Below, one piece after another: positions 1 to 12,613 of a DNA stretch of 12,613 bases. A program made the position numbers and the translations under genes. The DNA comes from a candidate division LCP-89 bacterium B3_LCP (lineage in GTDB: Bacteria > Electryoneota > B3-LCP): the NCBI GenBank assembly GCA_005223185.1, contig NJBN01000017.1, forward strand, positions 1 to 12,613, read 5' to 3'. The stretch's first letter is position 1. Every line of letters begins with the position of its first letter. Under the pieces are notes generated by a model that saw nothing but the letters and a program-made list of their open reading frames with translations, was not told the origin of the DNA and made no database searches.

Positions 1-673
<673 letters not shown>

Positions 674-694
674 TTTGTTCTCCTTTTCATGTTG

Positions 695-741
695 GATTAA
701 ACGATTTTCAGTTACTTGCAACTGAAGCTATTTCGCTTATC
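695..741 (-). promoter_or_regulatory. Candidate structured leader RNA, proximal copy
   Basis: Read on the minus strand, GATAAGCG (741-734) can pair with CGTTTAATC (703-695) with one bulged A and one G-U pair. Inside it TTCAGTT (726-720) pairs perfectly with AACTGAA (713-707) around a six-base loop. The fold ends about 20 bases before the ribosome-binding site of the Gly-rich gene, a position suited to controlling translation. I do not recognise it as a named riboswitch; the c-di-GMP-I consensus is absent. Confidence 0.4.
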
Positions 742-831
742 CCCAGATCAAGAAAAGCAGGAAGGGGGGTAAAGCTAAGTATTGTAGGTAAGGTGTTAAG
801 TCGTTTTCACTTTGCTCTCCTTTTCATGTTA

Positions 832-878
832 GATTAAACGATTTTCAGTTACTTTCAACTGAATTTATTTCGCTTATC
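832..878 (-). promoter_or_regulatory. Candidate structured leader RNA, distal copy
   Basis: This is the second copy of the two-helix fold, offset by exactly 137 bases. Both helices (GATAAGCG with CGTTTAATC; TTCAGTT with AACTGAA) are unchanged. Differences from the proximal copy fall in the hairpin loop (GAAAGT against GCAAGT) and the internal loop. It is followed by GGAGAGC and GTG-AAA-ACG-ACT-TAA, a four-codon reading frame that could be a decayed gene start or a leader peptide. Confidence 0.38.
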
Positions 879-981
879 CCCAGATCAGGAAGAGTGAGAA
901 GGGAAAAATGTTGGGTATTGGAGGTAAAGTTTTGAGTGGATGAGTAGTGTTATGTTTGTCGAAACGAAAATCATCCAAAAT

Positions 982-1009
982 AATGTACAAAAGAATTTTT
1001 TAAAGTCAA
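982..1009 (-). promoter_or_regulatory. Probable sigma70-type promoter for the Gly-rich gene
   Basis: On the minus strand TTGACT (1009-1004) is followed after 16 bases by TACATT (987-982); an alternative -10, CATTAT (985-980), has an 18-base spacer. The region is AT-rich and lies just after the terminator of the preceding gene. It predicts a leader of about 300 nt containing both 137-bp copies. Confidence 0.55.
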
Positions 1010-1092
1010 GGTATTTTTAAGATATTTTTAAATTCTGAGTAATATCTCAATATTAATCAATGCTTCTTTAGTGAATTGATGGGAATAGATGT

Positions 1093-1123
1093 AAAAAAGT
1101 CGGGGTTGTAGACGACCCCGACT
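1093..1123 (-). terminator. Intrinsic terminator of the beta-helix gene
   Basis: On the minus strand AGTCGGGGT pairs with ACCCCGACT around an eight-base loop, followed directly by a run of six T. It lies 46 bases after the stop codon of the gene ending at 1169. The hairpin matches an inverted copy inside that gene (1203-1226) at 20 of 24 positions. Confidence 0.85.
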
Positions 1124-1168
1124 ATGGGATACCGATTCATGGCAAACCGGAATGACATTATTTGATTG

Positions 1169-3373
1169 CTACTTCATCAACACCATCTTCCCTGTCGCCG
1201 TAGTCGGGGTCGCCTCTGACCCCGACGCTTCCAGTTGATACAGGTAAATTCCCGAAGCCAATCCAGACCCATTAAACACCACTTCATGCACGCCCGCATC
1301 CTGCCAGCCGTTGACCAGATCCGTTAGCAGCCGACCGGAAATGTCATAAACCGTCAGATTCACCTTACTTGCATCTGGCAGCTTGTAACTAATAACTGTA
1401 TTTGGATTGAAGGGATTGGGATATGTGCTCATCAAAGCATATTCATCCTGTAGGGCGGGGGTGCTTCCCCCGCTAATCTCATCGAACGGCTCACCCGTAC
1501 AAAGCCAATCATCAGCATCTCCCAATTTACCCTCAGAACTTCCCTCTTTCTCAAAGTAGAAATAGTAGTAATCATCCACCACCCAGGGATACGTCCCGGC
1601 ATAGGCAAAGTAGGTATATGTTCCCGCTGGAGCAAAATCCGGAACCTGCTGCGAACGATCACGGTCGATAGTTGTTCCAACTGCTATGGAAATATCCGAA
1701 ACGTTCATTATGGGCACAGACCCCCATTCGGGCAGCACAATCTCAGTCCAGAGATCGAAAGTCTGAACTTCATCAGTTCGGTTTTCTGCTGCTACATTGA
1801 AGGTGAACGATCCACCGGTTGCAGGGATGACGATGGGTGGATTTTCGGGAGTCAACGTCAGTTTGACTGGCATATCCTGATGGAAATAGCGCGCGCCCAT
1901 GTCGACTCTAGTACTATCCGGATCGAGCGGTGAGTTAGGATCACCCATATCAATGCAGGGTGAGATTCTTTGCAGGTTCAGATCGCCATTCGCCCCATCG
2001 ACGAACTGTGGATCGAGGCTTAGATTACCGCTTCCCGGGGAACAGCCGGAGTAATTACCTGAAGCATTATTCCACGTATCATTGAAAGGAGGCATCGGAT
2101 CAGAGAAATTGCCTGTCATGGCGATGCCATATCCACCTGAAGAGCTGATGATATTATTCTGAATGATACAAGAGGGAGAACCAAATCCAGGTCCGGTGAC
2201 ATCGATACCATTCGTTGCGGATGCATGAACGGTGTTGTTTTCAATGATGGGCGACACTAATGATGGATTAGTAAAGGTGACAGCAATTCCTGCGGCTGGA
2301 CTGTTGTAGATGGTATTACCTCTGATGGCGCCATCAACCTGGAAATAAACGTCTATACCACCGTCCGTAAAGGTGTTATCAACGATTTCAATATCGGGTC
2401 CCATACAGGATATCGATCCGTAAAGGCTACCCTGTATTTCGTTATCATGGAACAGCATACTCCAGCAATCCTGCATTTGTATATCACCTTGGATCAGATT
2501 GTCAATCATATCGCAATATATCCAATCTCCAATTAAGATATTACCATTGACAGTACTGTTTGTTAGATCGATACTGCCGGATTCGAAGTACTGCTGCCAT
2601 TCGATTCCTCCACCGACATAGCAGCTATCGATGTAAATTACGTCCCCTCCGGTAATCGTCCCCGTGATATCGCAGCCTGTGAAATAGCTGGTGCCTTCGA
2701 TGGTTATGGGAACGTCCCCTCCAACGAAGGTATTCGTAACCGTGTAGGTCGCAGCATAATCGGAGAGGTACATTGTACCGTTTATTGAGCAGGTGTGTAT
2801 GGTATAATCTGCACCTGGTCCATCTAGAAATTCTAAGTATCCACTAAAGGTACATTGATCTAAGACCATACATTGCCCACCGTTGAAGGTTAGATCGGTG
2901 TTAACATTACACCGCAGCATTGTCATGTAATCGGGTTGACCGCTGACAGGAAACAAAAATGTACAATCGGTAAGCTGAAACGGTTCATTGTAGTACACGT
3001 GGAAGTGATCTCCATATTCAAATAAACAGAACCGCATATCTACACTGCCGTAATTATTAACTATGAAACCATCCCAATCACCTGGTTGTGGATTAGGTAG
3101 ATTTGATGTGAATCGAATGGTATCACCCATTCCATCTGCCTGCAAATAGCCAATTACCTGCAGTAGGACGTCAGCCTCAAAGCGAACCTCTACTCCCGGT
3201 TCGATAGCCAGCGTATCACCGTCCTGAATGGTAATATTCCCTTCGACGATATAAGGTGACCCAGATATTTCCCATGTGCCCGATACCGAGCCACCGGGAA
3301 TAACTGTTTGAGCTGAAGCGATTGAAGCGATCAGCAATCCTTGAGTAAGAACAACCTGGATATTTCTGAACAT
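1169..3373 (-). CDS. Secreted parallel beta-helix protein with T9SS sorting domain
   Basis: A 734-residue protein. ATG at 3373-3371 follows GGGAGG. Residues 1-21 are a signal peptide ending ASA before Gln22. The opening motif (VSGTWEISGSPYIVEGNITI, then LAIEPGVEVRF at about 55-65) is typical of exported 'choice-of-anchor Q' beta-helix proteins. Residues about 45-470 hold short degenerate repeats rich in N, D, G and T, such as IIENNTVHA and IIQNNIISS, the pattern of a right-handed parallel beta-helix. SPCIDMGDPNSPLDPD...DMGA at 471-496 closes it. Residues 503-611 are the Ig-like module shared with the neighbours, 612-650 an acidic/Gly linker, and 651-734 the T9SS type A sorting domain ending GKMVLMK. 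Carbohydrate binding or lysis is common for such folds, but no catalytic residues can be assigned. Two palindromes (1203-1226, 1450-1475) lie in frame. It starts 55 bases after the gene ending at 3429 and may be co-transcribed with it. Confidence 0.93.
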   Translation of the reverse strand: MFRNIQVVLTQGLLIASIASAQTVIPGGSVSGTWEISGSPYIVEGNITIQDGDTLAIEPGVEVRFEADVLLQVIGYLQADGMGDTIRFTSNLPNPQPGDWDGFIVNNYGSVDMRFCLFEYGDHFHVYYNEPFQLTDCTFLFPVSGQPDYMTMLRCNVNTDLTFNGGQCMVLDQCTFSGYLEFLDGPGADYTIHTCSINGTMYLSDYAATYTVTNTFVGGDVPITIEGTSYFTGCDITGTITGGDVIYIDSCYVGGGIEWQQYFESGSIDLTNSTVNGNILIGDWIYCDMIDNLIQGDIQMQDCWSMLFHDNEIQGSLYGSISCMGPDIEIVDNTFTDGGIDVYFQVDGAIRGNTIYNSPAAGIAVTFTNPSLVSPIIENNTVHASATNGIDVTGPGFGSPSCIIQNNIISSSGGYGIAMTGNFSDPMPPFNDTWNNASGNYSGCSPGSGNLSLDPQFVDGANGDLNLQRISPCIDMGDPNSPLDPDSTRVDMGARYFHQDMPVKLTLTPENPPIVIPATGGSFTFNVAAENRTDEVQTFDLWTEIVLPEWGSVPIMNVSDISIAVGTTIDRDRSQQVPDFAPAGTYTYFAYAGTYPWVVDDYYYFYFEKEGSSEGKLGDADDWLCTGEPFDEISGGSTPALQDEYALMSTYPNPFNPNTVISYKLPDASKVNLTVYDISGRLLTDLVNGWQDAGVHEVVFNGSGLASGIYLYQLEASGSEATPTTATGKMVLMK
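1203..1226. repeat. Palindrome in frame in the T9SS domain coding region
   Basis: GTCGGGGTC and GACCCCGAC form a perfect 9-bp inverted repeat around GCCTCT. It encodes about residues 717-724 (SGSEATPT) of the beta-helix protein, just before ATGKMVLMK. The other sorting domains here have a shorter segment at this point (for example TAGAYNATGK), which suggests an insertion of roughly five codons. It is nearly the same as the terminator hairpin at 1099-1122, in inverted orientation. Confidence 0.75.
1450..1475. repeat. GTAGGG palindrome in frame in the linker coding region
   Basis: GCGGGGG (1455-1461) and CCCCCGC (1467-1473) form a perfect 7-bp stem around TGCTT, preceded by GTAGG as in other palindromes of this window. 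On the minus strand it encodes SGGSTPAL (about residues 634-641), in the flexible linker between the Ig-like and sorting domains, where extra residues should do little harm. Confidence 0.65.
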
Positions 3374-3397
3374 TTTTTCCTCCCCTGATTAACGAAC

Positions 3398-3421
3398 AGG
3401 GGCGACCTTTCAGCCGCCCCT
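3398..3421. repeat. Intercistronic hairpin
   Basis: AGGGGCG and CGCCCCT form a 7-bp stem around a ten-base loop, in the 55-base gap between the two minus-strand genes. No T run follows on the minus strand, so it is not a classic intrinsic terminator. It may be a partial terminator, an mRNA-stabilising hairpin, or another GGGG-type palindrome. Confidence 0.6.
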
Positions 3422-3428
3422 TAATTTG

Positions 3429-5462
3429 TTACTTCATCAACACCATCTTACCTGTCGCAGTGAACCCACCTGCTTCAACCCTGTACAGATAAATCCCCGA
3501 AGCCAGACCAAAACCATCGAAAGTGATCTGGTGGGTGCCGGGGGGATATAGGCGGGTTGACGCAAGGTCCCCGAAGGGGCAGGCGACCCCTACGCGGCAG
3601 CCGTTTGTATTATAGACGTCAAGTTTCACCGAACTCGCAACTCGCAATTCGAAACTAATAACTGTACTGGGGTTGAAAGGATTGGGATAGCAGTTCAGCA
3701 TGAGGAATTCTGTGGAGGCAGCAATTTCAGTGCTTCCCTCAAAAGAATCCCCACTGTTCGTCCATTCATCGATAGCTTCGCCATCTCCTCCAGCCAGTTT
3801 CTCGAAGGGGAAATTAGCTAAGTTACACACGACGTCCGGGTAATTGCCCTGGAAGAAGTTATACCTGTATATTCCAGCAGGAGCGTTTCCTGAAACATTC
3901 TGCGTGCGGTCACGACTTATCGTGCTTCCTGCCGATAAAATCAAGGGAACGGGTCCCAACACAGGACCGTATTGGTTTCCATTTGGCAGAGTTACATCAC
4001 ACCAGAAATCGCAAATAACCGTTTCCGGTTCATTGTTAATGATCTCCACGTTGTAGTCAAAACTGCCCCCGGAAGCTGGTATCTGAATTGGCAATCCGTA
4101 AGGTGTTATCGTTACCGCAATGTCGGGTTGACCGTACATTAAAGTCAACGCATCATAACCGTTATTTGGTACAACGCCCGCACCACCGACGAACACGTTA
4201 CCATCGCTGCCAACGGCGATGCAATTGGCTTCATCACCATCACCGTTGCCGGGACCGGCGTAGTTCGCCACCCACAGTTCCTGACCATCGCAATCGTATT
4301 TAACCGAAATGATTTCGTAGTGAGAATCCCATTCACTCGGGGCAACATCGCTCTTTCCGGTTACATAAACGCTGTTTTCCGCATCGGTAGTTATTGAAGC
4401 AGCGATATCTTCCTGCCCTTCGGGTCCATCGTACCGGGTAACCCAGATTTCATCTCCATCTTGATTGTATTTCACCGTAGCGTAATTATATGACGGGAAG
4501 AATATACCCTCTTCTTCGGCGCTGGTACCGGTAACATAAATGAAACCATCGCCGTCCATAGCAATGGCATTGGCTTCATCATCTTGATTTGCAGGACCAT
4601 TGTACCTTGATACCCATTGTTCCTGACCATCCGGACTGTATTTGATAGTGGTATAGTCATACAGCGAATCGTACATGAAAGCGCGACCGGTGATATACAC
4701 ATTACCGCTTTCGTCAAGCACAATTCCGGTGGCATAATCCGACAAGATTGCTGAACCATTATAACTAACCGCCCACTGAAACTGCCCTTCCGCATCGAAT
4801 TTCACGGTCAGATAATCGCACTGTAAACCTGTAGAATCAATCAAGCAGGAACCGGTAACGTAAACATTTCCGTCAGTATCCACAGCAATATCTCTGGCTA
4901 TTGCTCCCATACCGGAATAAACAGCAACCCATTGCTCTTCGCCTTGTGCGTTATATTTAATCACCACATAATCCATCCAACTGTGCCAGCCCATAATGTA
5001 AACATAACCATCTTCATCCAGAGTGATAGCGTACCCTTCATCAGTTCTGCTTCCGGGGAAGTTGTACATTGCCACCCATTGTTCGGCGCCGTCCGAATCG
5101 TACTTGATAGTGCAAAAATCGCCATAGCACGATCCGGTAACGTAGATATTATCATCATCGTCTATGGCGATATCGTTGGCTCTACCACCGTCATGCCTGG
5201 CAACCCACAGCTCTTCACCAGCAGTGTTGTACTTGATGGTGATAAAGCTGTACTCCGCATACCCCAAATGACTGGCGCCCGTGACGTACACGTTGTTCTG
5301 GCTGTCCAACACCATGTTGCTAATGCCGTCGTAAAGGTTGTCTGGACCGTTATACCGGGCTGCCCATTCCTCTATAACTTGTGCGTTTACCGTGCCTATA
5401 ACTCCAACCCAGATCATACCCAGAGTCAGCAGTAGAATTGGAATTCTTTGAGAACCGTTCAT
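3429..5462 (-). CDS. Secreted SBBP-repeat beta-propeller protein with T9SS sorting domain
   Basis: A 677-residue protein; ATG at 5462-5460 follows GGAGGAAAG. Signal peptide at 1-28 (hydrophobic ILLLTLGMIWVGVIGTVNA before Gln). Residues about 30-445 hold eight copies of a repeat of 45-60 residues: W-V-x-R-Y-x-G-P, D-x-A-x-x-I-x-x-D-x-x-G-N-V-Y-V-T-G, then Y-x-T-I-K-Y-x-x-x-G-x-E-x-W. This is the SBBP beta-propeller repeat (Pfam PF06739 family), seen in exported proteins of unknown role in many environmental bacteria. Residues 450-558 are the Ig-like module (IQIPASGGSFDYNV to FPFEK), 559-591 the linker and 592-677 the T9SS domain ending GKMVLMK. Codons 624-637 derive from a palindromic element. 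This gene is first in a likely two-gene unit with the beta-helix gene and has a near-consensus promoter at 5508-5536. A ligand or surface-display role is inference; no enzyme motif is visible. Confidence 0.94.
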   Translation of the reverse strand: MNGSQRIPILLLTLGMIWVGVIGTVNAQVIEEWAARYNGPDNLYDGISNMVLDSQNNVYVTGASHLGYAEYSFITIKYNTAGEELWVARHDGGRANDIAIDDDDNIYVTGSCYGDFCTIKYDSDGAEQWVAMYNFPGSRTDEGYAITLDEDGYVYIMGWHSWMDYVVIKYNAQGEEQWVAVYSGMGAIARDIAVDTDGNVYVTGSCLIDSTGLQCDYLTVKFDAEGQFQWAVSYNGSAILSDYATGIVLDESGNVYITGRAFMYDSLYDYTTIKYSPDGQEQWVSRYNGPANQDDEANAIAMDGDGFIYVTGTSAEEEGIFFPSYNYATVKYNQDGDEIWVTRYDGPEGQEDIAASITTDAENSVYVTGKSDVAPSEWDSHYEIISVKYDCDGQELWVANYAGPGNGDGDEANCIAVGSDGNVFVGGAGVVPNNGYDALTLMYGQPDIAVTITPYGLPIQIPASGGSFDYNVEIINNEPETVICDFWCDVTLPNGNQYGPVLGPVPLILSAGSTISRDRTQNVSGNAPAGIYRYNFFQGNYPDVVCNLANFPFEKLAGGDGEAIDEWTNSGDSFEGSTEIAASTEFLMLNCYPNPFNPSTVISFELRVASSVKLDVYNTNGCRVGVACPFGDLASTRLYPPGTHQITFDGFGLASGIYLYRVEAGGFTATGKMVLMK
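3554..3593. repeat. GTAGGGG palindromic element in frame in the T9SS domain coding region
   Basis: On the minus strand the element opens with GTAGGGGTCGCC, has an inner CCCC-TTC-GGGG hairpin, and closes with GCG-TCA-ACCC, which can pair with GGGTCGC if TCA is bulged. It encodes VGVACPFGDLASTR (residues 624-637), between the GR.V strand and YPPGTHQITFDG of the sorting domain. The sorting domain is about seven residues longer here than in the two neighbours lacking an insertion at this place. Confidence 0.7.
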
Positions 5463-5507
5463 TCTTTCCTCCTCTCCAATGCCGGATATTAATAGTAGCT
5501 GTTTAAC

Positions 5508-5536
5508 AATATAGCAATAAATTGTTTAAATGTCAA
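5508..5536 (-). promoter_or_regulatory. Sigma70-type promoter for the SBBP gene
   Basis: On the minus strand TTGACA (5536-5531) is separated by exactly 17 bases from TATATT (5513-5508), inside AT-rich DNA. The -10 box lies about 45 bases before the start codon, a normal leader length. It would drive the SBBP gene and probably the beta-helix gene after it. Confidence 0.8.
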
Positions 5537-5606
5537 GGCAATTCTCAAATGCAGGGATTTTTATCCCCATAGGAGCAGGCTGCCCCGATTATGAACAAAC
5601 TCAATG

Positions 5607-5716
5607 TGTCATTCCGGAAGAACTTTAGTTCTATCCGGTATGTAGTACTCCTTCGGAGAATCCAGCGTTCAAACTCATTGAGTATCCTCTGGACTCCCGT
5701 TTACACGGGAGTGACA
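5607..5716. repeat. Composite 110-bp repeat with near-inverted ends
   Basis: It begins TGTCATTCC and ends GGAGTGACA, which are inverted copies with one mismatch. Inside are CCGGA-GAACT...AGTTC-TCCGG (imperfect palindrome, 5614-5638), ACTCC-TTC-GGAG around 5647-5658, and a perfect 8-bp stem ACTCCCGT-TTAC-ACGGGAGT (5693-5712). Short elements with 'GTCATTCC' and 'GGGAGTGACA' ends are common non-coding repeats in bacterial genomes. No transposase is present; a MITE-like or REP-like unit is an inference. Confidence 0.6.
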
Positions 5717-5720
5717 GGAA

Positions 5721-5754
5721 GCGTCAGGTCTCCGCTTCGCTAAGGACCTGACGC
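5721..5754. repeat. 10-bp perfect inverted repeat
   Basis: GCGTCAGGTC (5721-5730) and GACCTGACGC (5745-5754) flank a 14-base spacer. It lies four bases beyond the composite element. There is no T run on either strand, so a terminator is unlikely; a dispersed palindromic repeat fits better. Confidence 0.8.
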
Positions 5755-5893
5755 AACGGTTAATCCTTTAAAACCAGAAGCCCGTAAGGGGAGCTTGCGC
5801 CCATGCCACCCACCGCCGGACTATCATTCATACATAAATATTGCAAAAAAATAGAAAAAAACCAATTTATTTTGCCCCAATTTAAAAAAAGAC

Positions 5894-5922
5894 TTGACAT
5901 TTACTTAAAAAATTGTTATAAT
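5894..5922 (+). promoter_or_regulatory. Consensus sigma70 promoter for the second beta-helix gene
   Basis: TTGACA (5894-5899), a 17-base spacer and TATAAT (5917-5922): both hexamers match the consensus exactly. It lies 59 bases before the ATG at 5982 and predicts a leader of about 50 nt ending in GGAGG. Confidence 0.88.
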
Positions 5923-5981
5923 GATAGATACAACTTGTTACTATAAGCAATTTAAACGTTCAAACAGCGCGGAGGTATATC

Positions 5982-7916
5982 ATGAGAGTAGTAACCTATA
6001 TCAATCTGATTGCGGTATCACTCATCCTGTGTGCTGTTCCAGCTCTAAGTCAGACCTACGTTGCAGGACAGGTCAGCGGAGTGTGGACAGCTATGGGATC
6101 GCCGTATTATGCGCTTGCAGACATCGAAATACCATTTGGATCGAGTCTGATGATTGAACCCGGAGTGGAAGTAAAGTTCACCGGACATCACCAATTTATT
6201 GCACATGGGAACCTATTGGCCATCGGAGCACCGGGAGATTCTATTTATATGACACATAATCTGCCTTACGCTACGGAAACCTGGGCGGGTTTGAGCCTTT
6301 TGCAGACTGAAGGTACATCTGAACTTGCCTATTGCGTCATTGAATGGGGGTATGCGCAGGGTGCGCAATCCGAACCTTACAGCAAGGGTGGTGGTGTTCA
6401 CGTTTACAACACGTCAGCATACATTCACGATTGCCGCATTTCCAATAACAAAGCTGATTACAAAGGCGGCGGTATCTACCTGCTGCAAGCATATGCTGAA
6501 ATCGGTTATAACGAGATCACCAACAACCAATCCTACGATGATGGCGGTGGTATCTACTTGCAGGAATGCGCGGATAGTTACATCCACGATAACATCATCT
6601 TCAGCAATGTGGCTGATCACGGTGCCGGAATGGCTTATGAATACAGCGGTGGCTTGTTGGAAAGCAACTACATCAATTTCAACAGCGCTGTCGTTTACAG
6701 CGGCGGTGGAATCTGTCTGGATCACAGCTCGCCGAACATCCAGTACAATGTGATCAACTGGAACAGTTCGGTGAATTATACGGGTACCGGTATCTACTGC
6801 CATCACTATTCCAGCCCCTTCATTTACTACAATGAAGTGTGCCAGAACAACCTGGGAGCTATCTTCTGCGGCGATCACTGTTCCCCTGTAATCACCAATA
6901 ACACCATCGAACAGAATGGACATAATTCCATCAGGGCGTATCAGTATTCGCATCCATACGGCCGCAACAATATCATCATGGGAAATCTACAGCAGTTCTA
7001 CGTATATTCAGGCTGTTCGATTACCATGACCTACAGCGATATCCAGAACGGCTGGCCCGGTGTGGGTAACATCTACATGCTGCCTTTCCACATCGATCCC
7101 AATGCAGGTAACTACTTCCTGCAGCCGATCAGCCCCTGTATAGATGCTGGCGATCCTGCAGATCCTCCCGATCCTGATGGCACGCGGCGGGATATGGGCG
7201 CGCACTATTTCGATCAAGGAGTACAGCAGGGAATCTGCAGCATCTCGTTAACGCCATTTGGTACGCCAATAGTTCTCCCACCGACGGGCGGCACAGTATG
7301 GTTCGGATTGTCTATCATCAACAGTCCTTACTTTTACAACGTTTACGATGCCTGGTATAACCTGCAGCAGCCGGATGCTCAGATTATCCTGATGGTACTG
7401 CGGCAGGGATTGTACATGGACCCCGGTGGTTCGATGTCGAGAACGATGTACTTGACCATTAGCGGGATGTCCATGCCGGGAACTTACACCGTTACAGCTT
7501 ACACCGGTGAATATCCCAATATTATTGAAAGTTGGAATAGCTTCACCTTCGAAAAGGCTAGAGGCGGTGATGGTTCTGGCTCTGAGGGCACGGTTACATT
7601 CTTCGACGGCGAAGTTGAGGAAACCTTCAGCTTGAAAGCGGCTATCGTTCTTGAAGCTACAGAATTGCTGGGGCACTTCCCCGAACCGTTCAATCCGCAA
7701 GCTACCATCAATTTCAATCTGGCAACGCCTGAGAAGGTGATTCTGGAAGTTTACAGCATCACCGGGCAAAAGGTGATGACGCTATTAGACCGCACCTTAA
7801 GCCCCGGTTATTACAGTGAGAAATTCGATGGGTCCGGATTGACGTCCGGCGTTTATCTGTATCGTTTAACGGCTGGCGCTTACAACGCTACCGGTAAAAT
7901 GGTGCTGATGAAGTAG
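5982..7916 (+). CDS. Secreted parallel beta-helix protein with T9SS sorting domain
   Basis: A 644-residue protein. ATG at 5982 follows GGAGG by six bases. Signal peptide 1-23 ends ALS before Gln24. The N-terminal signature GVWTAMGSPYYALADIEIPFGSSLMIEPGVEVKF matches the beta-helix protein on the other strand, so the two are related. From about 125 to 330 the repeats are clear: GGGIYLLQAYAEIGYNEI, GGGIYLQECADSYIHDNII, GGGICLDHSSPNIQYNVI, the PbH1 pattern of about 22-25 residues per turn with 'GGGI' openings. SPCIDAGDPADPPDPDGTRRDMGAHYF closes the helix. Residues 422-528 are the shared Ig-like module, 529-565 the linker and 566-644 the sorting domain (FPEPFNP start, GKMVLMK end). This sorting domain carries no palindromic insertion and serves as the uninterrupted reference. 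A surface or extracellular polysaccharide-related role is family inference only. It is probably monocistronic: own promoter before it, hairpin at 7952-7996 after it. Confidence 0.94.
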   Translation: MRVVTYINLIAVSLILCAVPALSQTYVAGQVSGVWTAMGSPYYALADIEIPFGSSLMIEPGVEVKFTGHHQFIAHGNLLAIGAPGDSIYMTHNLPYATETWAGLSLLQTEGTSELAYCVIEWGYAQGAQSEPYSKGGGVHVYNTSAYIHDCRISNNKADYKGGGIYLLQAYAEIGYNEITNNQSYDDGGGIYLQECADSYIHDNIIFSNVADHGAGMAYEYSGGLLESNYINFNSAVVYSGGGICLDHSSPNIQYNVINWNSSVNYTGTGIYCHHYSSPFIYYNEVCQNNLGAIFCGDHCSPVITNNTIEQNGHNSIRAYQYSHPYGRNNIIMGNLQQFYVYSGCSITMTYSDIQNGWPGVGNIYMLPFHIDPNAGNYFLQPISPCIDAGDPADPPDPDGTRRDMGAHYFDQGVQQGICSISLTPFGTPIVLPPTGGTVWFGLSIINSPYFYNVYDAWYNLQQPDAQIILMVLRQGLYMDPGGSMSRTMYLTISGMSMPGTYTVTAYTGEYPNIIESWNSFTFEKARGGDGSGSEGTVTFFDGEVEETFSLKAAIVLEATELLGHFPEPFNPQATINFNLATPEKVILEVYSITGQKVMTLLDRTLSPGYYSEKFDGSGLTSGVYLYRLTAGAYNATGKMVLMK

Positions 7917-7951
7917 TTACAGAGAACAGAGTACAGAAAACTGAATATTAT

Positions 7952-7996
7952 AGAGGGGCTGTCTAATTACATTCCGGTTTTTAGGACAACCCCTCT
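7952..7996 (+). terminator. Hairpin after the beta-helix gene, terminator or repeat remnant
   Basis: AGAGGGG (7952-7958) pairs with CCCCTCT (7990-7996), and TGTC with GACA inside it after one mismatch, around an AT-rich loop. It lies 36 bases after the stop codon, a normal terminator position, but only a weak T run follows. Read as DNA, the arms GGGGCTGTC-TAA and TTA-GGACAACCCC resemble the ends of small transposon remnants, so it may serve as a terminator derived from such an element. Confidence 0.5.
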
Positions 7997-8011
7997 TATA
8001 CACATAAAAGC

Positions 8012-8132
8012 GAACATGCAATAAAATACACTTGATTTCTGCTTTCGAATTCTTTTAACTTAGCGGATGCAACATTCACATCCTTACGGAGGATATATAG
8101 GCTGATAGCCGTTATCACAATCTGGAGGAATT
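8012..8132 (+). repeat. Upstream region shared with the next paralogue
   Basis: The stretch before this gene and 10651-10776 before the next are diverged copies. GAACATGCAA, AAATACACTTGATTTC, GCAACAT/ACAACAT, and the end TCACAA...CTGGAGGAA are shared. The leader of about 70 nt ends in GGAGGA before ATG. The duplication therefore included promoter and leader, not only the coding sequence. Confidence 0.75.
8032..8060 (+). promoter_or_regulatory. Probable promoter of the first Asp-box paralogue
   Basis: TTGATT (8032-8037), 17 bases, then TTAACT (8055-8060). The -10 box is weak, but the surrounding block (GAACATGCAA, AAATACACTTGATTTC) is repeated before the next paralogue at the same relative place, which supports a functional site. 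Confidence 0.5.
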
Positions 8133-10532
8133 ATGAAGCGACTTATTATCATTTCATTTATACTGATTCTGATTCCACTGTTCGTACTTACCGCTAATAA
8201 TCAGACGGTGCCGTTGAAAAACTATCCCTATATGACTGGCAGAGAGGATGTTCGCGCGCCGGTGGCTCACCCACCCTATCCAGGTTATGGTACGACTGAC
8301 CTTGGTACCACTACCGTTATCGGTACTACCTGGTACGAACTCCAGCACAATGGTACGGTCGGGCGTATGATCGAGAGGAGTGCTGATGGTTACACCGACT
8401 TCGTCTGGATGAATGGTGAGGACTGGGGTGCAATTAGTCGCCATATCTACTACAATTATATTGACCCTTCAGGCGTTCAGGGTTGGCCCGGATCCGGTTA
8501 TCCGGTGGAAGCCTCTCAGCGGGCTGGTTATACCACCATGGACGTGGAAGACTGGGGAGCTGGTGGAATCGCTTTTCCCTGCTATCACTCCACTCCTATT
8601 CCGGGTGGCGACTTCTGGACTGTTACCGCGGCTGACCTCTATTCTCACACCGGTTCTTTTGTCACCTATGAGGCACCTAATCCTTATAATCCACAACTTC
8701 CGGAAATAATCTGGCCGCGCATCCAGTTTGACAACCAGCAGGCTCTGCAGATTGTATCGACTGTAAATCCATATTCTATGGATCCTCAACGTCACTACTG
8801 GATTAGAGGAACGTACGATCCATTAACCTTCTCTATCAGTTATGAAGGTAATTTCGAACTGATGACCTGGACCATGACCATCGCAGGTGATGTGGCTACA
8901 TCTGAGGTCTCTGACAAGGTTGCTTATGCCTGGACCTGGTGCAAGAGTGAAGGTTTCCCCTCAGGTTCGGTAATTGATTTCAGTCAGCGTAACAATGACA
9001 TCTACCTTGTGGTCGATTACGACGGTGAAGATCCAGACTGGACCGATTTTGTTAATATCACGTGCTTTATGCCTCCGGATCTTTCCTGGCTGCCGGATAC
9101 ACTAATGGCTAACATGGACACCCTGCGTGCATACACCGACCTGAATGTCTTTATCGACCAGGATGATTTTGTACACGTTGTATTCACTACTCCATCTTAT
9201 TTTGCTGTACAGGGGGAAACTCATGTGCATCCTTCTCTAATCTGGCACTGGACCAGCCAATATCCTGACGAAGATCCCAAAATGATTCACGACGCCTTCG
9301 ATGACTGGTGGTGGAATTCAGTCGATTGCGGAGCCTGGAATGTGAAGGCTCAGCGTCCACAGTTGGGCCAGGATCCTGCTACTGGTTACCTGTACTGCAT
9401 GTACCAGGTGTATGACTGTGATACTCTGGCTCTGAGTGAGGGCGGTTTCCCATCCGGTGAAATTTACCTGTCCTATTCGGAAGATCTCGGTTTGAACTGG
9501 CATGAAGGCACCAACATCACAGAAACCATCACGCCGAACAACGCCGCGCCCGGCGCTTGCTTGTCCGAAATTACCCCCAGCATGGCAAAACTGGTTAATG
9601 ATACTTGCCACATCATGTACGTTCTTGATCGTGATGCCGGTACGGTGGTCCAGACTGAAGGCAGTTGGACGCTTAATGACGTTGTGTATCACCAGGTACC
9701 AGTGGGAGATATTCCCGCCACACCTTTGGTTCCGCAGTTCCCTGAGCCTGGCAGCTATCCATTTCACGGGTACGGCATACCTCCACCCAACATGTTTGTG
9801 GAAGTTACCTACGTTTCCGGATCACCAGTGCCTGCAAGCGGTGGCAACCTGTACTATGCCATCTGGGGTGAAAACCAAGCGGGTCAGCCTCTGGACTACG
9901 ACATCTGGATTGACAAGATTTACCAGCCAGGACAACCGGATTCCACTGTCACTACCCTAATCCTGCGTGAAATCACCAACTACCTGCCCGGCTGGCAGAT
10001 CAACCGTCCGGACGCCTGGTTCCCGGTACCCGGCGACTGGCCCGGCGGCGAATATGCTTTCCAGATTTACACCGGTTGGCATCCCGAATACACTGTCTGG
10101 CATAATGACATGATGTATTGGGTGAAGGATGGTCCAGTAGATTCCGACTTCGACTTCGAAGCCAACCTACCACTGAATGCACCTGATCCATTCGAACAGA
10201 TTGCTATAACCCAGGTTGACTACACTGTGCCAGAGCAGTTTGAAGTCACGGGGGTTTATCCGAATCCGTTCAACGCAACTACTGTTCTCAGTTTCTCTAT
10301 GCGAGTTGCGAGTTTGGTGACTCTGGACATATTCGACGTAAATGGGCGGAATGTAGGGGCAAGCCTCCGTGCTTGCCCGGGTAGCCACAGAGGGCTACCC
10401 CTACAATCCTGGTACCCCCCCGGTACTCACCAGATCACCTTCGATGGCACAGATCTACCTTCTGGCATGTACATCTATCGAATAACGGCAGGTGAGTTCA
10501 CAGTATCAGGCAAGATGGTGTTGATGAAATAA
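8133..10532 (+). CDS. Secreted Asp-box (sialidase-like propeller) protein with T9SS sorting domain
   Basis: A 799-residue protein. ATG at 8133 follows GGAGGA. Signal peptide at about 1-21 (KRLIIISFILILIPLFVLTA). Residues about 40-540 form an all-beta region rich in W, Y and D, with one clear Asp box, S449-E-D-L-G-L-N-W456, the SxDxGxxW motif of BNR/sialidase propellers, and weaker blade-like stretches (GTTWYELQHNGTVGRMI, RHIYYNYI, LNVFIDQDDFVHVVFTT). The catalytic Arg triad of true sialidases cannot be assigned, so no enzyme activity is claimed. Residues 556-667 are the Ig-like module (SPVPASGGNLYYAI to VKDG), 668-708 the linker and 709-799 the T9SS domain ending GKMVLMK. Residues 741-757 are encoded by a double palindrome (10353-10404). 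The next gene is a close paralogue, about 70% identical by eye over the visible part. Confidence 0.92.
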   Translation: MKRLIIISFILILIPLFVLTANNQTVPLKNYPYMTGREDVRAPVAHPPYPGYGTTDLGTTTVIGTTWYELQHNGTVGRMIERSADGYTDFVWMNGEDWGAISRHIYYNYIDPSGVQGWPGSGYPVEASQRAGYTTMDVEDWGAGGIAFPCYHSTPIPGGDFWTVTAADLYSHTGSFVTYEAPNPYNPQLPEIIWPRIQFDNQQALQIVSTVNPYSMDPQRHYWIRGTYDPLTFSISYEGNFELMTWTMTIAGDVATSEVSDKVAYAWTWCKSEGFPSGSVIDFSQRNNDIYLVVDYDGEDPDWTDFVNITCFMPPDLSWLPDTLMANMDTLRAYTDLNVFIDQDDFVHVVFTTPSYFAVQGETHVHPSLIWHWTSQYPDEDPKMIHDAFDDWWWNSVDCGAWNVKAQRPQLGQDPATGYLYCMYQVYDCDTLALSEGGFPSGEIYLSYSEDLGLNWHEGTNITETITPNNAAPGACLSEITPSMAKLVNDTCHIMYVLDRDAGTVVQTEGSWTLNDVVYHQVPVGDIPATPLVPQFPEPGSYPFHGYGIPPPNMFVEVTYVSGSPVPASGGNLYYAIWGENQAGQPLDYDIWIDKIYQPGQPDSTVTTLILREITNYLPGWQINRPDAWFPVPGDWPGGEYAFQIYTGWHPEYTVWHNDMMYWVKDGPVDSDFDFEANLPLNAPDPFEQIAITQVDYTVPEQFEVTGVYPNPFNATTVLSFSMRVASLVTLDIFDVNGRNVGASLRACPGSHRGLPLQSWYPPGTHQITFDGTDLPSGMYIYRITAGEFTVSGKMVLMK
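10353..10404. repeat. Double GTAGGGG palindrome in frame in the T9SS domain coding region
   Basis: Two units lie tail to tail in 52 bp. The left one begins GTAGGGG and has the stem GGGCAAGC/GCTTGCCC (10357-10364, 10371-10378; loop CTCCGT). The right one, read on the minus strand, also begins GTAGGGG and has the stem GGGTAGCC/GGCTACCC (10379-10386, 10393-10400). Outer TGTAGGGG (10352-10359) pairs with CCCCTACA (10398-10405). It encodes residues 741-757, VGASLRACPGSHRGLPL, with no stop, and makes the sorting domain about 12 residues longer than the uninserted ones. Confidence 0.85.
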
Positions 10533-10555
10533 CACCAAAATGATAACAAAAGGCT

Positions 10556-10601
10556 GTAGGGGCAGACCTGTGTGTCTGTCCTTTCCGTGTCCCTGCTACC
10601 C
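10556..10601. repeat. GTAGGGG palindromic element after the Asp-box gene
   Basis: It begins GTAGGGG, and GGGCAGAC (10560-10567) pairs with GTCTGTCC (10574-10581; one G-U pair) around CTGTGT. The stem and six-base loop match the geometry of the units at 10353-10404. A partial inverted unit follows: GTCCCTGCTAC, whose complement starts GTAG. It lies 24 bases after the stop codon and is followed by TTT, so it may also terminate the transcript weakly. Confidence 0.75.
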
Positions 10602-10650
10602 GAAAAATCGTCAAAAAATTAATTATACTATACTTACAACTATTCATGAA

Positions 10651-10776
10651 AGTGAACATGCAAAAAAATACACTTGATTTCAGCCTCTTGAATTTTGTAT
10701 CTTATTGGTTACAACATACAAATCACTTCGGGGCAGACAATACGATGACAATAGTAATCACAAAACTGGAGGAACT
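10651..10776 (+). promoter_or_regulatory. Promoter and leader of the second Asp-box paralogue
   Basis: TTGATT (10674-10679), 17 bases, then GTATCT (10697-10702), or TATCTT with 18. The block around it is the counterpart of 8012-8132. The leader ends CTGGAGGAACT before the ATG at 10777. The -35 box and its flanks are better conserved between the two copies than the sequence after the -10. Confidence 0.5.
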
Positions 10777-12613
10777 ATGAAGCGACTCATTACCACTTCA
10801 CTGATGCTCATTCTAATTCCGGTGCTTGTACTCACCGCCAACGATCAGATGACACCAGAGAAAACCTATCCCTTAATAACAGGAGAAGAGGAAATTCACG
10901 CTCCGGTGGCTCACCCGCCATATCCAGCATGGGGTGCGATTGACCTTGGTACTACGCAGATTATCGGTACTACCTGGTATGATAATCAGCATAACGGTAC
11001 TATCGGTCGCATGGTTGCAATGGATGAATTAGGCTACTTGCATTTCGACTGGACCAACGGTCTGGATTATGGTTCGACTGACCGCCACATCTACTACAAT
11101 TATATCGATCCCGTAACCGGCCTTCAAGGTTGGCCCGGGTCCGGTTATCCGGTAGAATCCGCAAACCGCGCAGGGTACTGCACCATAGATGCTGACTTTG
11201 GTGGTAGAGCATTCCCTGCTTTCCACTGGACAAACACACCGGGTGGTCTGTTCTGGACAGCGGTAGCAACGGACTTTTTCCCGCATACAGGAACGTTCAT
11301 CACTTATGAAGCTCCACCTTACCCTCTGGATAAGGTAATCTGGCCCCGTATTCAGTTTGATAGACAGCAGTACATGCAGATCGTATCGACTGAGAACCCG
11401 GGTTCTGCAGGTGCTGCTCAGCGCCACTTCTATACCAAGGGGACTTATGATGAATTACTGTACTCGATAAGCTATTCTCCCTGGGAACTGATGACCTGGA
11501 CCATGACCATCGCTGCTGATGTGGCTACGTCCGACGTATCCGACAAGGTCGCTTATGCCTGGACCTGGTGCAGGGATGACGGTTTCCCCACTGCTCCTGA
11601 TCCTAGTCAGCGAAACAACGACATCTACGTTGTAATCGATGATGATGGTGTCAATCCCGACTGGAATGATTTCACCAACATAACCAACTTCATCCCGCCG
11701 GATCTGTCCTATCTGCCGGATACTACCTTAGCTGAAATGGACACTCTTCGTGCCTATACTGACCTGAATGTCTTTATCGATCAGGACGATTACACGCATG
11801 TGGTCTTTACAACACCATCATACTTCGAACTTCAGGGAACCACCTACTGGCATGCATCCTCGATCTGGCATTGGACCGATCAGTACCCGCTTGAAGATCC
11901 CAAGATGATCCACGACGCCTTCGATGACTGGGATTGGAACTACATCGATTGCGGCGCCTGGAACGTGAAAGCTCAGCGTCCGCAGTTGGGTCAGGATCCA
12001 TCCACAGGTAATCTCTACTGCGTTTACCAGGTCTATGACTGCGATACTCTGGCTCAGAGTGCAGGCGGTTACCCATCTGGTGAAATCTACCTGTCCTATT
12101 CTGAAGATGGCGGTATGAACTGGCATGAAGGCACCAACATTACTGAAACGATAACTCCTAATAATGCTGCTCCGGGAGCATGTTTCTCTGAATGTTACCC
12201 CAGTATTGCCAAGGTAGTGGATGGTGAATGTCATATCATCTACGAATTTGATAAAGATGCCGGTACTGTAACTCAGACCGAAGGTACCTGGACATTGAAC
12301 GATATGGTCTATCACAACGTGCCGGTAGGAATCATCCCTGCCACACCACTGGTTCCGCAGTGGCCCGAACCCGGCAGTTATCCGTTCCATGTCGAAACCG
12401 AACCTCAGTATCCCGACATGGTCGTTACATTGGCCCTCGTTGGCGGTTCGCCGATACCTGCTGGCGGTGGCATTCTCGACTACATGATCTGGGGTGAAAA
12501 CCAGAGTGGTCAACCTCTGGACTACGACATCTGGATTGACCATATTTATCAGCCAGGGCAACCGGATTCCACCTTCACTACCTTAATCCTGCGTGAGATC
12601 ACCAACTACCTGC
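10777..12613 (+). CDS. Second Asp-box propeller paralogue, 3' end outside the window
   Basis: An open frame of 612 codons from ATG at 10777 to the window edge, preceded by GGAGGA. Signal peptide KRLITTSLMLILIPVLVLTA. It aligns without major gaps to the preceding 799-residue protein, about 70% identical by eye, with long identical blocks such as YTDLNVFIDQDD, CGAWNVKAQRPQLGQDP and ITPNNAAPGAC. The Asp box is conserved as S442-E-D-G-G-M-N-W449. The Ig-like module starts at about 550 and is cut at EITNYL, matching residue 618 of the paralogue, so about 180 residues (rest of the Ig-like module, linker, sorting domain) should lie beyond the edge. DNA identity is highest near the cut (12500-12613 against 9882-9989), suggesting recent duplication or gene conversion there. 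Function beyond an exported propeller-like protein is unknown. Confidence 0.92.
   Translation, partial: MKRLITTSLMLILIPVLVLTANDQMTPEKTYPLITGEEEIHAPVAHPPYPAWGAIDLGTTQIIGTTWYDNQHNGTIGRMVAMDELGYLHFDWTNGLDYGSTDRHIYYNYIDPVTGLQGWPGSGYPVESANRAGYCTIDADFGGRAFPAFHWTNTPGGLFWTAVATDFFPHTGTFITYEAPPYPLDKVIWPRIQFDRQQYMQIVSTENPGSAGAAQRHFYTKGTYDELLYSISYSPWELMTWTMTIAADVATSDVSDKVAYAWTWCRDDGFPTAPDPSQRNNDIYVVIDDDGVNPDWNDFTNITNFIPPDLSYLPDTTLAEMDTLRAYTDLNVFIDQDDYTHVVFTTPSYFELQGTTYWHASSIWHWTDQYPLEDPKMIHDAFDDWDWNYIDCGAWNVKAQRPQLGQDPSTGNLYCVYQVYDCDTLAQSAGGYPSGEIYLSYSEDGGMNWHEGTNITETITPNNAAPGACFSECYPSIAKVVDGECHIIYEFDKDAGTVTQTEGTWTLNDMVYHNVPVGIIPATPLVPQWPEPGSYPFHVETEPQYPDMVVTLALVGGSPIPAGGGILDYMIWGENQSGQPLDYDIWIDHIYQPGQPDSTFTTLILREITNYL

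Follow-up and report, generated by a model that had tools for sequence, protein, structure and literature searches.

The stretch of DNA analysed here, referred to as the window, is 12,613 nucleotides long and is one entire contig (G000:C10, positions 1-12613). It carries four long genes with a T9SS tail, namely those for a beta-helix protein, a delta-60/SBBP-type propeller, a third protein with a REP-free tail (5982-7916) and the protein that contains the palindrome under study. For the N-terminal part of the last of these, no relative was found in a protein search of the genome contigs. The features of the window are the following:

8133..10532, + strand: T9SS cargo gene, 799 aa, intact, which carries the 52-bp palindrome
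10227..10529, + strand: T9SS type A C-terminal sorting domain of this gene (PF18962, 29 bits, cut-off 27; TIGR04183, 33 bits, cut-off 23; own HMM)
10353..10378, + strand: REP unit of family A, forward; GTAGGGGCAAGCCTCCGTGCTTGCCC; codes for VGASLRACP; stem 10357-10364/10371-10378
10379..10404, - strand: REP unit of family A, inverted partner; GTAGGGGTAGCCCTCTGTGGCTACCC on the - strand; PGSHRGLPLQ in the gene's sense; stem 10379-10386/10393-10400
10556..10581, + strand (same strand as the gene): single family-A REP, 27 nt past the last sense codon and followed by TTT
3432..3713, - strand: T9SS sorting domain encoded by the adjacent gene 3429-5462 (own HMM and domain scan)
3554..3593, - strand: family-E element in its long variant, GTAGGGGTCGCCTGCCCCTTCGGGGACCTTGCGTCAACCC; lies in frame in loop 1 of gene 3429-5462, the loop that also holds the 52-bp palindrome in its own gene; codes for VGVACPFGDLASTR
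1172..1450, - strand: T9SS sorting domain of gene 1169-3373 (own HMM and domain scan)
1200..1225, + strand: family-G REP, antisense to gene 1169-3373; in frame, in loop 2 before GKMVLMK; SGSEATPTT
1450..1474, + strand: family-C REP, antisense to gene 1169-3373; in frame, in the linker just upstream of the sorting domain; SGGSTPALQ

The palindrome (10353-10404) consists of two 26-nt REP units placed head to head, each with a GTAG tag, a perfect 8-bp stem and a 6-nt loop, together with an outer 8-bp pair, TGTAGGGG/CCCCTACA, at 10352-10359/10398-10405. Folding of the 56-nt stretch as DNA gives exactly a double-hairpin cruciform of -19.2 kcal/mol, compared with -9.0 for shuffled sequences (z -5.35), and none of 200 shuffles was as good. 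Both units have GTAG at the 5′ base of a stem-loop within the 20-40 nt range, as in the GTAG REP superfamily, and the inverted doublet folds as one hairpin structure, as a REPIN does. No match was obtained in Rfam at the gathering threshold, and GTAGGGG is only mildly in excess within the window (4 occurrences vs 1.5 expected). The reading frame crosses the palindrome as VGASLRACPGSHRGLPLQ and continues to an intact C-terminus. In effect, the initial annotation of a double palindrome in frame within a T9SS sorting domain is borne out, both by the open frame and by the two domain models that score over their cut-offs. Within the domain, the palindrome lies in the loop between GR-N and WYPPGTHQITF. 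The AlphaFold model (mean pLDDT 76.7) is a beta sandwich in which the REP-coded residues 43-59 link strands 29-36 and 59-63; this loop is largely of low confidence, with pLDDT below 50 at residues 47-54. Foldseek matches of the model include the T9SS CTD structures 8glk_D and 8qb1_A.

The 26-nt family-A pattern occurs exactly 33 times in the genome, compared with 0 for the reversed control pattern, and 46 copies are found when mismatched ones are included. At least seven families of GTAG hairpins can be distinguished, with genome-wide pattern counts of 46 for A (26 nt), 8 for B, 28 for C, 12 for D, 43 for E, 4 for F and 46 for G, which makes a total of 187 once matches to loose 'X' patterns are excluded. 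The families were first recognised in stretches around T9SS domains and REPs (477 kb analysed), so the share of each family may be biased; control stretches and a census in a sister genus (G004, see below) were made to meet this bias. In the T9SS stretches, GTAG precedes a perfect 8-bp hairpin in 76 cases, compared with 0-5 for ten other 4-nt tags. GTAG hairpins number 107 in the 477 kb of T9SS stretches and 3 in 385 kb of control stretches, a ratio (about 29-fold) that is somewhat inflated because part of the 477 kb was picked for a known REP. The stems of family A covary, with 97.3% of cells paired and 31 double changes vs 9.3 in shuffles, and the same is observed in family E. A chance palindrome is ruled out by the genome-wide copies against the reversed control, the excess of the GTAG tag, the control stretches and the folding z-score. 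Two of the control stretches contain another GTAG hairpin, GTAGCCGCAGGTGAAACCTGCGG (L254:1481-1503 and L268:18522-18544), apparently from a family that is not tied to T9SS.

Regarding location, 66 of the 187 copies are inside T9SS sorting domains, 10 are in the upstream linker (within the ORF) and 44 are at most 120 bp downstream. T9SS coding sequence contains 16 of the 46 family-A copies and 22 of the 43 family-E copies. The copies are thus not confined to extragenic DNA, a location that is not strictly required in the GTAG REP superfamily. Long ORFs other than those of T9SS proteins that overlap REPs mostly do so upstream of plausible starts or are spurious, which leaves few real cases, namely a RAYT that carries an element in frame and, possibly, C16:116534. 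Downstream of T9SS genes in this genome there are 25 copies of family A (e.g., window 10556-10581) and 14 of family C. All 25 of the former and 12 of the latter share the orientation of the gene, and most are followed by a T-run; because of this orientation and the T-run, these copies resemble intrinsic terminators for the T9SS genes.

A profile of the local sorting domain recovered 194 domains in the fetched stretches, of which 184 were aligned for the loop-1 count. REPs occupy four slots: the linker (families C and D), loop 1 after GR.V (pairs of A, and B, D, E, F and G), loop 2 ahead of GKMVLMK (chiefly G) and, often 13 or 27 nt past the coding end, the 3′ side (A and C). Loop 1 contains a REP in about 57 of the 184 aligned domains, and in 57 of 57 such domains the frame is open to the canonical C-terminus (K..L.K ends). 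The further copies that the initial annotation proposed to search for are therefore present, both as the 46 copies of family A and as REPs of several families in the same loop of these domains, and the gene decay that it named as a refuting outcome is not seen. The 57 open domains also rule out a pseudogene reading. All 30 forward units share a single reading phase (GTA|GGG), even though family A, for instance, has a further open phase. While empty domains read GR.VAELVNGWRDAGVHEV, filled domains have REP-coded residues in place of AELVNG. The native right flank is kept in C7:12693, C7:14645 and C15:82042, which are REP insertions outside the 53-member clade described below. When C7:12693 is set against an empty paralogue, 6 nt of the latter are replaced by 27 nt (CTT and a 24-nt element), and the loop is 21 nt longer overall. 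Thus, these REPs are replacements, or insertions with small deletions, and not clean insertions. Many family-E copies, in addition, have GGTTCC in common on the left of the element.

The history of the slot was followed on DNA trees built without it (FastTree; 369 short, recombining columns). Here, 53 of the 57 filled domains form one clade (SH support 94) with no empty members, and the state of the slot (REP or none) changes 3 times on the tree, compared with at least 42 times in shuffles. By contrast, the REP family label changes at least 29 times inside the clade (shuffled mean 37, least 32), or 26 and 34 times on trees of the upstream and downstream halves, respectively; the exact count is soft because the tree is short and the paralogues recombine. 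These changes rule out the spread of one REP family by descent alone, while the somewhat clustered labels (29 changes vs 37) indicate that part of the pattern is plain inheritance. Close paralogues may also carry different REPs, such as F in C7:155112 and G in C7:159791 (84.5% identity), or B and E in C12:64716 and G in C12:67222 (83% identity). Consequently, given the clade without empty members and the family changes between close paralogues, occupancy of the slot is fixed and the identity of the REP turns over.

Similar slots are found in relatives. Independent genomes from four further genera have loop 1 filled too: G002 carries inverted pairs of its own there, and G001 and G005 have filled slots as well. 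In the sister genus G004, a 28-nt palindrome, GTAGGGGTTCAACATGTTGAACCCCTAC, is found at 23 sites, all of them in loop 1, where it codes for VGVQHVEPLQ or close variants. Its copies are 97% identical, compared with 68% for the flanks, and identity falls to 0.69 three bases to the left and to 0.56 three bases to the right. Among conserved codons, third-position identity is 0.95 within the element vs 0.60 and 0.50 outside, which rules out conservation of the peptide as the sole cause. Given this third-position identity and the drop at the edges, it is as a nucleotide sequence that the unit is copied, or kept, and its edges are sharp. In the window's genome, REPs from at least seven families fill the slot of about 57 paralogous domains, in every case in frame and open, and sister genera have palindromes of their own. 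By pattern scans, the lineage falls near candidate division LCP-89. A pattern specific for loop 1 has matches in only three genomes of a collection of 84,980 species (an LCP-89 bacterium, a bacterium from Lac Pavin and a Calditrichaeota bacterium) and, within the phylum, in the window's family only; it is tuned to GTAGGGG and G[ST]H[QE][VI][ST]FD, and so leaves room for other forms elsewhere. Composite arrays of GTAGGGGCGTTTAATTAAACGCCC- and GTAGGACAGACATTC-type hairpins with similar spacing stand beside T9SS genes in L304, L305, L307, L309, L310 (G004) and L318; in L318, the GTAGGACAGACATTC-type hairpin also flanks a Y1 transposase gene.

The genome contains ten Y1_Tnp genes. Among the eight that were scanned, four (L048, L049, L050 and L051) pass the NCBIfam cut-off for REP-associated tyrosine transposases (NF047646) and L052 is just under it. 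The L049 transposase is flanked by inverted E REPs and that of L052 by inverted G REPs. For family A, to which the window's units belong, there is only a degenerate copy near the L053 transposase, and no clear cognate RAYT stands out for this family among the Y1 genes. Likewise, no copy of the G004 loop palindrome adjoins any of the seven Y1 transposase genes found there, and it is therefore without a known cognate RAYT. TnpAREP enzymes cut single-stranded DNA at CT or CA, and GTAG is the likely guide (PMC8266576). The Y1 transposase gene of L053 (L053:1459-2088; G000 C14:126153-126782, - strand) is RAYT-like and has an in-frame palindromic element, INVGAGFAEGTLKGKPAPTR; an element of the same type fills loop 1 in C7:494717 and C18:244077.

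Taken together, the 52-bp palindrome is best explained as an inverted pair of GTAG-tagged REPs in a fixed slot between two beta strands of the sorting domain. With a probability of roughly 0.7, GTAG REPs of the kind mobilised by RAYTs, which are single-strand Y1 transposases, are resident, in-frame and swappable loops of a tolerant T9SS signal. A REP would have landed in loop 1 of an ancestor, after which the native VAELVNG segment would have been lost, with REP-coded residues now filling the gap. While the sorting domains multiplied, equivalent loops may then have traded REPs as short units, through single-strand cleavage and joining by a putative RAYT-type enzyme, very short conversion tracts, or both. 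Their persistence would be due to a tolerant loop, to selection on the frame and to the removal of the signal domain from the mature protein. In Porphyromonas, the T9SS signal domain is cleaved off after export (PMC8545088); if the same holds here, tolerance of loop REPs would follow.

The REPs may have spread by RAYT chemistry or by short-tract conversion, and conversion is a serious rival. In its strict form it dispenses with transposition: each family would have entered the loop once, and duplication of the domain and gene conversion between paralogues would have spread and reshuffled the REPs. The main weakness of an account by RAYTs only is that the G004 palindrome adjoins no Y1 gene, and its 23 copies, all within T9SS domains and none flanking a transposase, agree with conversion. 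So do the GGTTCC shared by many family-E copies, which looks like conversion tracts, and the 22-nt upstream flanks that 3′ REPs have in common by groups (e.g., C4:17053, C4:53249 and C7:16985). Nevertheless, edges as sharp as those of G004 (from 97% to 0.69 and 0.56 within three bases) would require conversion tracts about 28 nt long. Moreover, the 5′ flanks of about 3 nt are the same in those copies of families E and G that lie outside T9SS, and the native right flank persists in at least three of the insertions outside the clade. Spread without any transposition is therefore possible but doubtful. A more elaborate version of the exchange of loops, by analogy with attC hairpins and integron integrases, is rather improbable: the palindromes would form a homing and exchange system for secretion-signal loops, in which Y1/RAYT enzymes acting in trans recognise single-stranded hairpins and swap short cassettes. 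If this were true, the sorting domain behind the hairpin would perhaps be swapped between cargo genes too, which would give a hypervariable loop in the secretion signal.

Other readings place selection on the element where it stands. The hairpin itself might be selected as a structure in mRNA or single-stranded DNA that slows translation before the signal or serves as a recombination site, as could be expected from the third-position identity in G004, the stem covariation that alters residues (e.g., VGVGLAPTR to VGVDLASTR) and the full occupancy of the slot in the clade. However, recently copied REPs that keep their stems for mobility would give the same picture, some two thirds of this genome's T9SS domains look intact without a loop REP, and loop elements vary in strength and length, which makes this reading improbable. 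Selection of the encoded peptide, for instance as a cargo-specific recognition loop, would fit the single reading phase of forward units and the lack of empty members in the clade; it is very unlikely, as the peptides are unrelated between families (VGVGLAPTR, VGARHASP, SGSGATPTT and VGVQHVEPL), elements are present in both orientations and the modelled loop is of low confidence. Finally, the 18-contig assembly of an uncultured organism, in which the window is one whole short contig, might suggest an assembly artefact or decaying pseudogenes, but this is scarcely credible with frame and C-terminus kept in 57 of 57 domains and the same slot filled in independent genomes of four other genera. 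In the preferred reading, that of resident and swappable REP loops, selfish palindromes have turned into a standing part of a protein domain, and a small protein loop is the almost exclusive landing or exchange site in this lineage (23 of 23 copies in G004). To our knowledge, the movement and target choice of REPs are poorly understood, and transposition has hardly ever been caught in the act. Because the families turn over in alignable paralogues, the sequence itself displays where the units end, which rules the frame follows and how exchange proceeds. For T9SS researchers, dozens of natural loop replacements mark the freely variable part of the sorting signal.

Several known systems resemble the one described here. 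Rickettsia palindromic elements, to which the palindrome had initially been likened, are also palindromic, in frame and kept in the protein, in genes that are otherwise intact; this likeness in the way of working stands, and the class does not, as the window's element is a GTAG-tagged REP/RAYT element in a REPIN-like inverted pair. We know of no link of the Rickettsia elements to one domain. By the published tag class they are set apart as well, since RPE-4/6 are CGTC repeats in varied genes (PMC3733652). PARCEL palindromic coding repeats are coding DNA with dyad symmetry that has spread within genomes, but they are tandem arrays of a 25-residue amphipathic motif, described with neither a GTAG hairpin nor a sorting-domain loop (PMC2996958). 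REPINs are likewise inverted REP doublets that form a larger hairpin (Bertels and Rainey 2011 PMC3116915), although those of SBW25 are extragenic with spacings most commonly of 71 and 110 bp (PMC3116915), compared with 0 to about 7 nt in coding DNA here.

The closest likeness in form is to GTAG REPs and RAYTs, in which GTAG marks the base of a GC-rich hairpin of 20-40 nt, a genome contains several families, inverted pairs are formed and Y1 transposases are flanked by cognate REPs (Nunvar 2010 PMC2817692; Di Nocera 2013 PMC3733652), the last of these being seen here for families E and G. In-frame intragenic GTAG and CGTC repeats have already been published, and REPs in recB of X. campestris and X. 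oryzae are at about the same site (PMC3733652). In the open-access literature, no paper was found in which REPs cluster in a single loop of a single domain family, several REP families exchange within one slot or a palindrome is restricted to T9SS domains, and the earlier remark that no such family had been described for these domains holds as far as this search reaches. Thus, in-frame REPs were known, while residence in one domain loop with turnover of families appears to be new. Published GTAG REPs are mostly intergenic, with coding copies scattered over unrelated genes such as those for DNA repair; here, by contrast, most coding copies are in one loop of one domain family, where the families turn over, so that a mobile repeat regarded as non-coding has become an exchangeable part of the domain.
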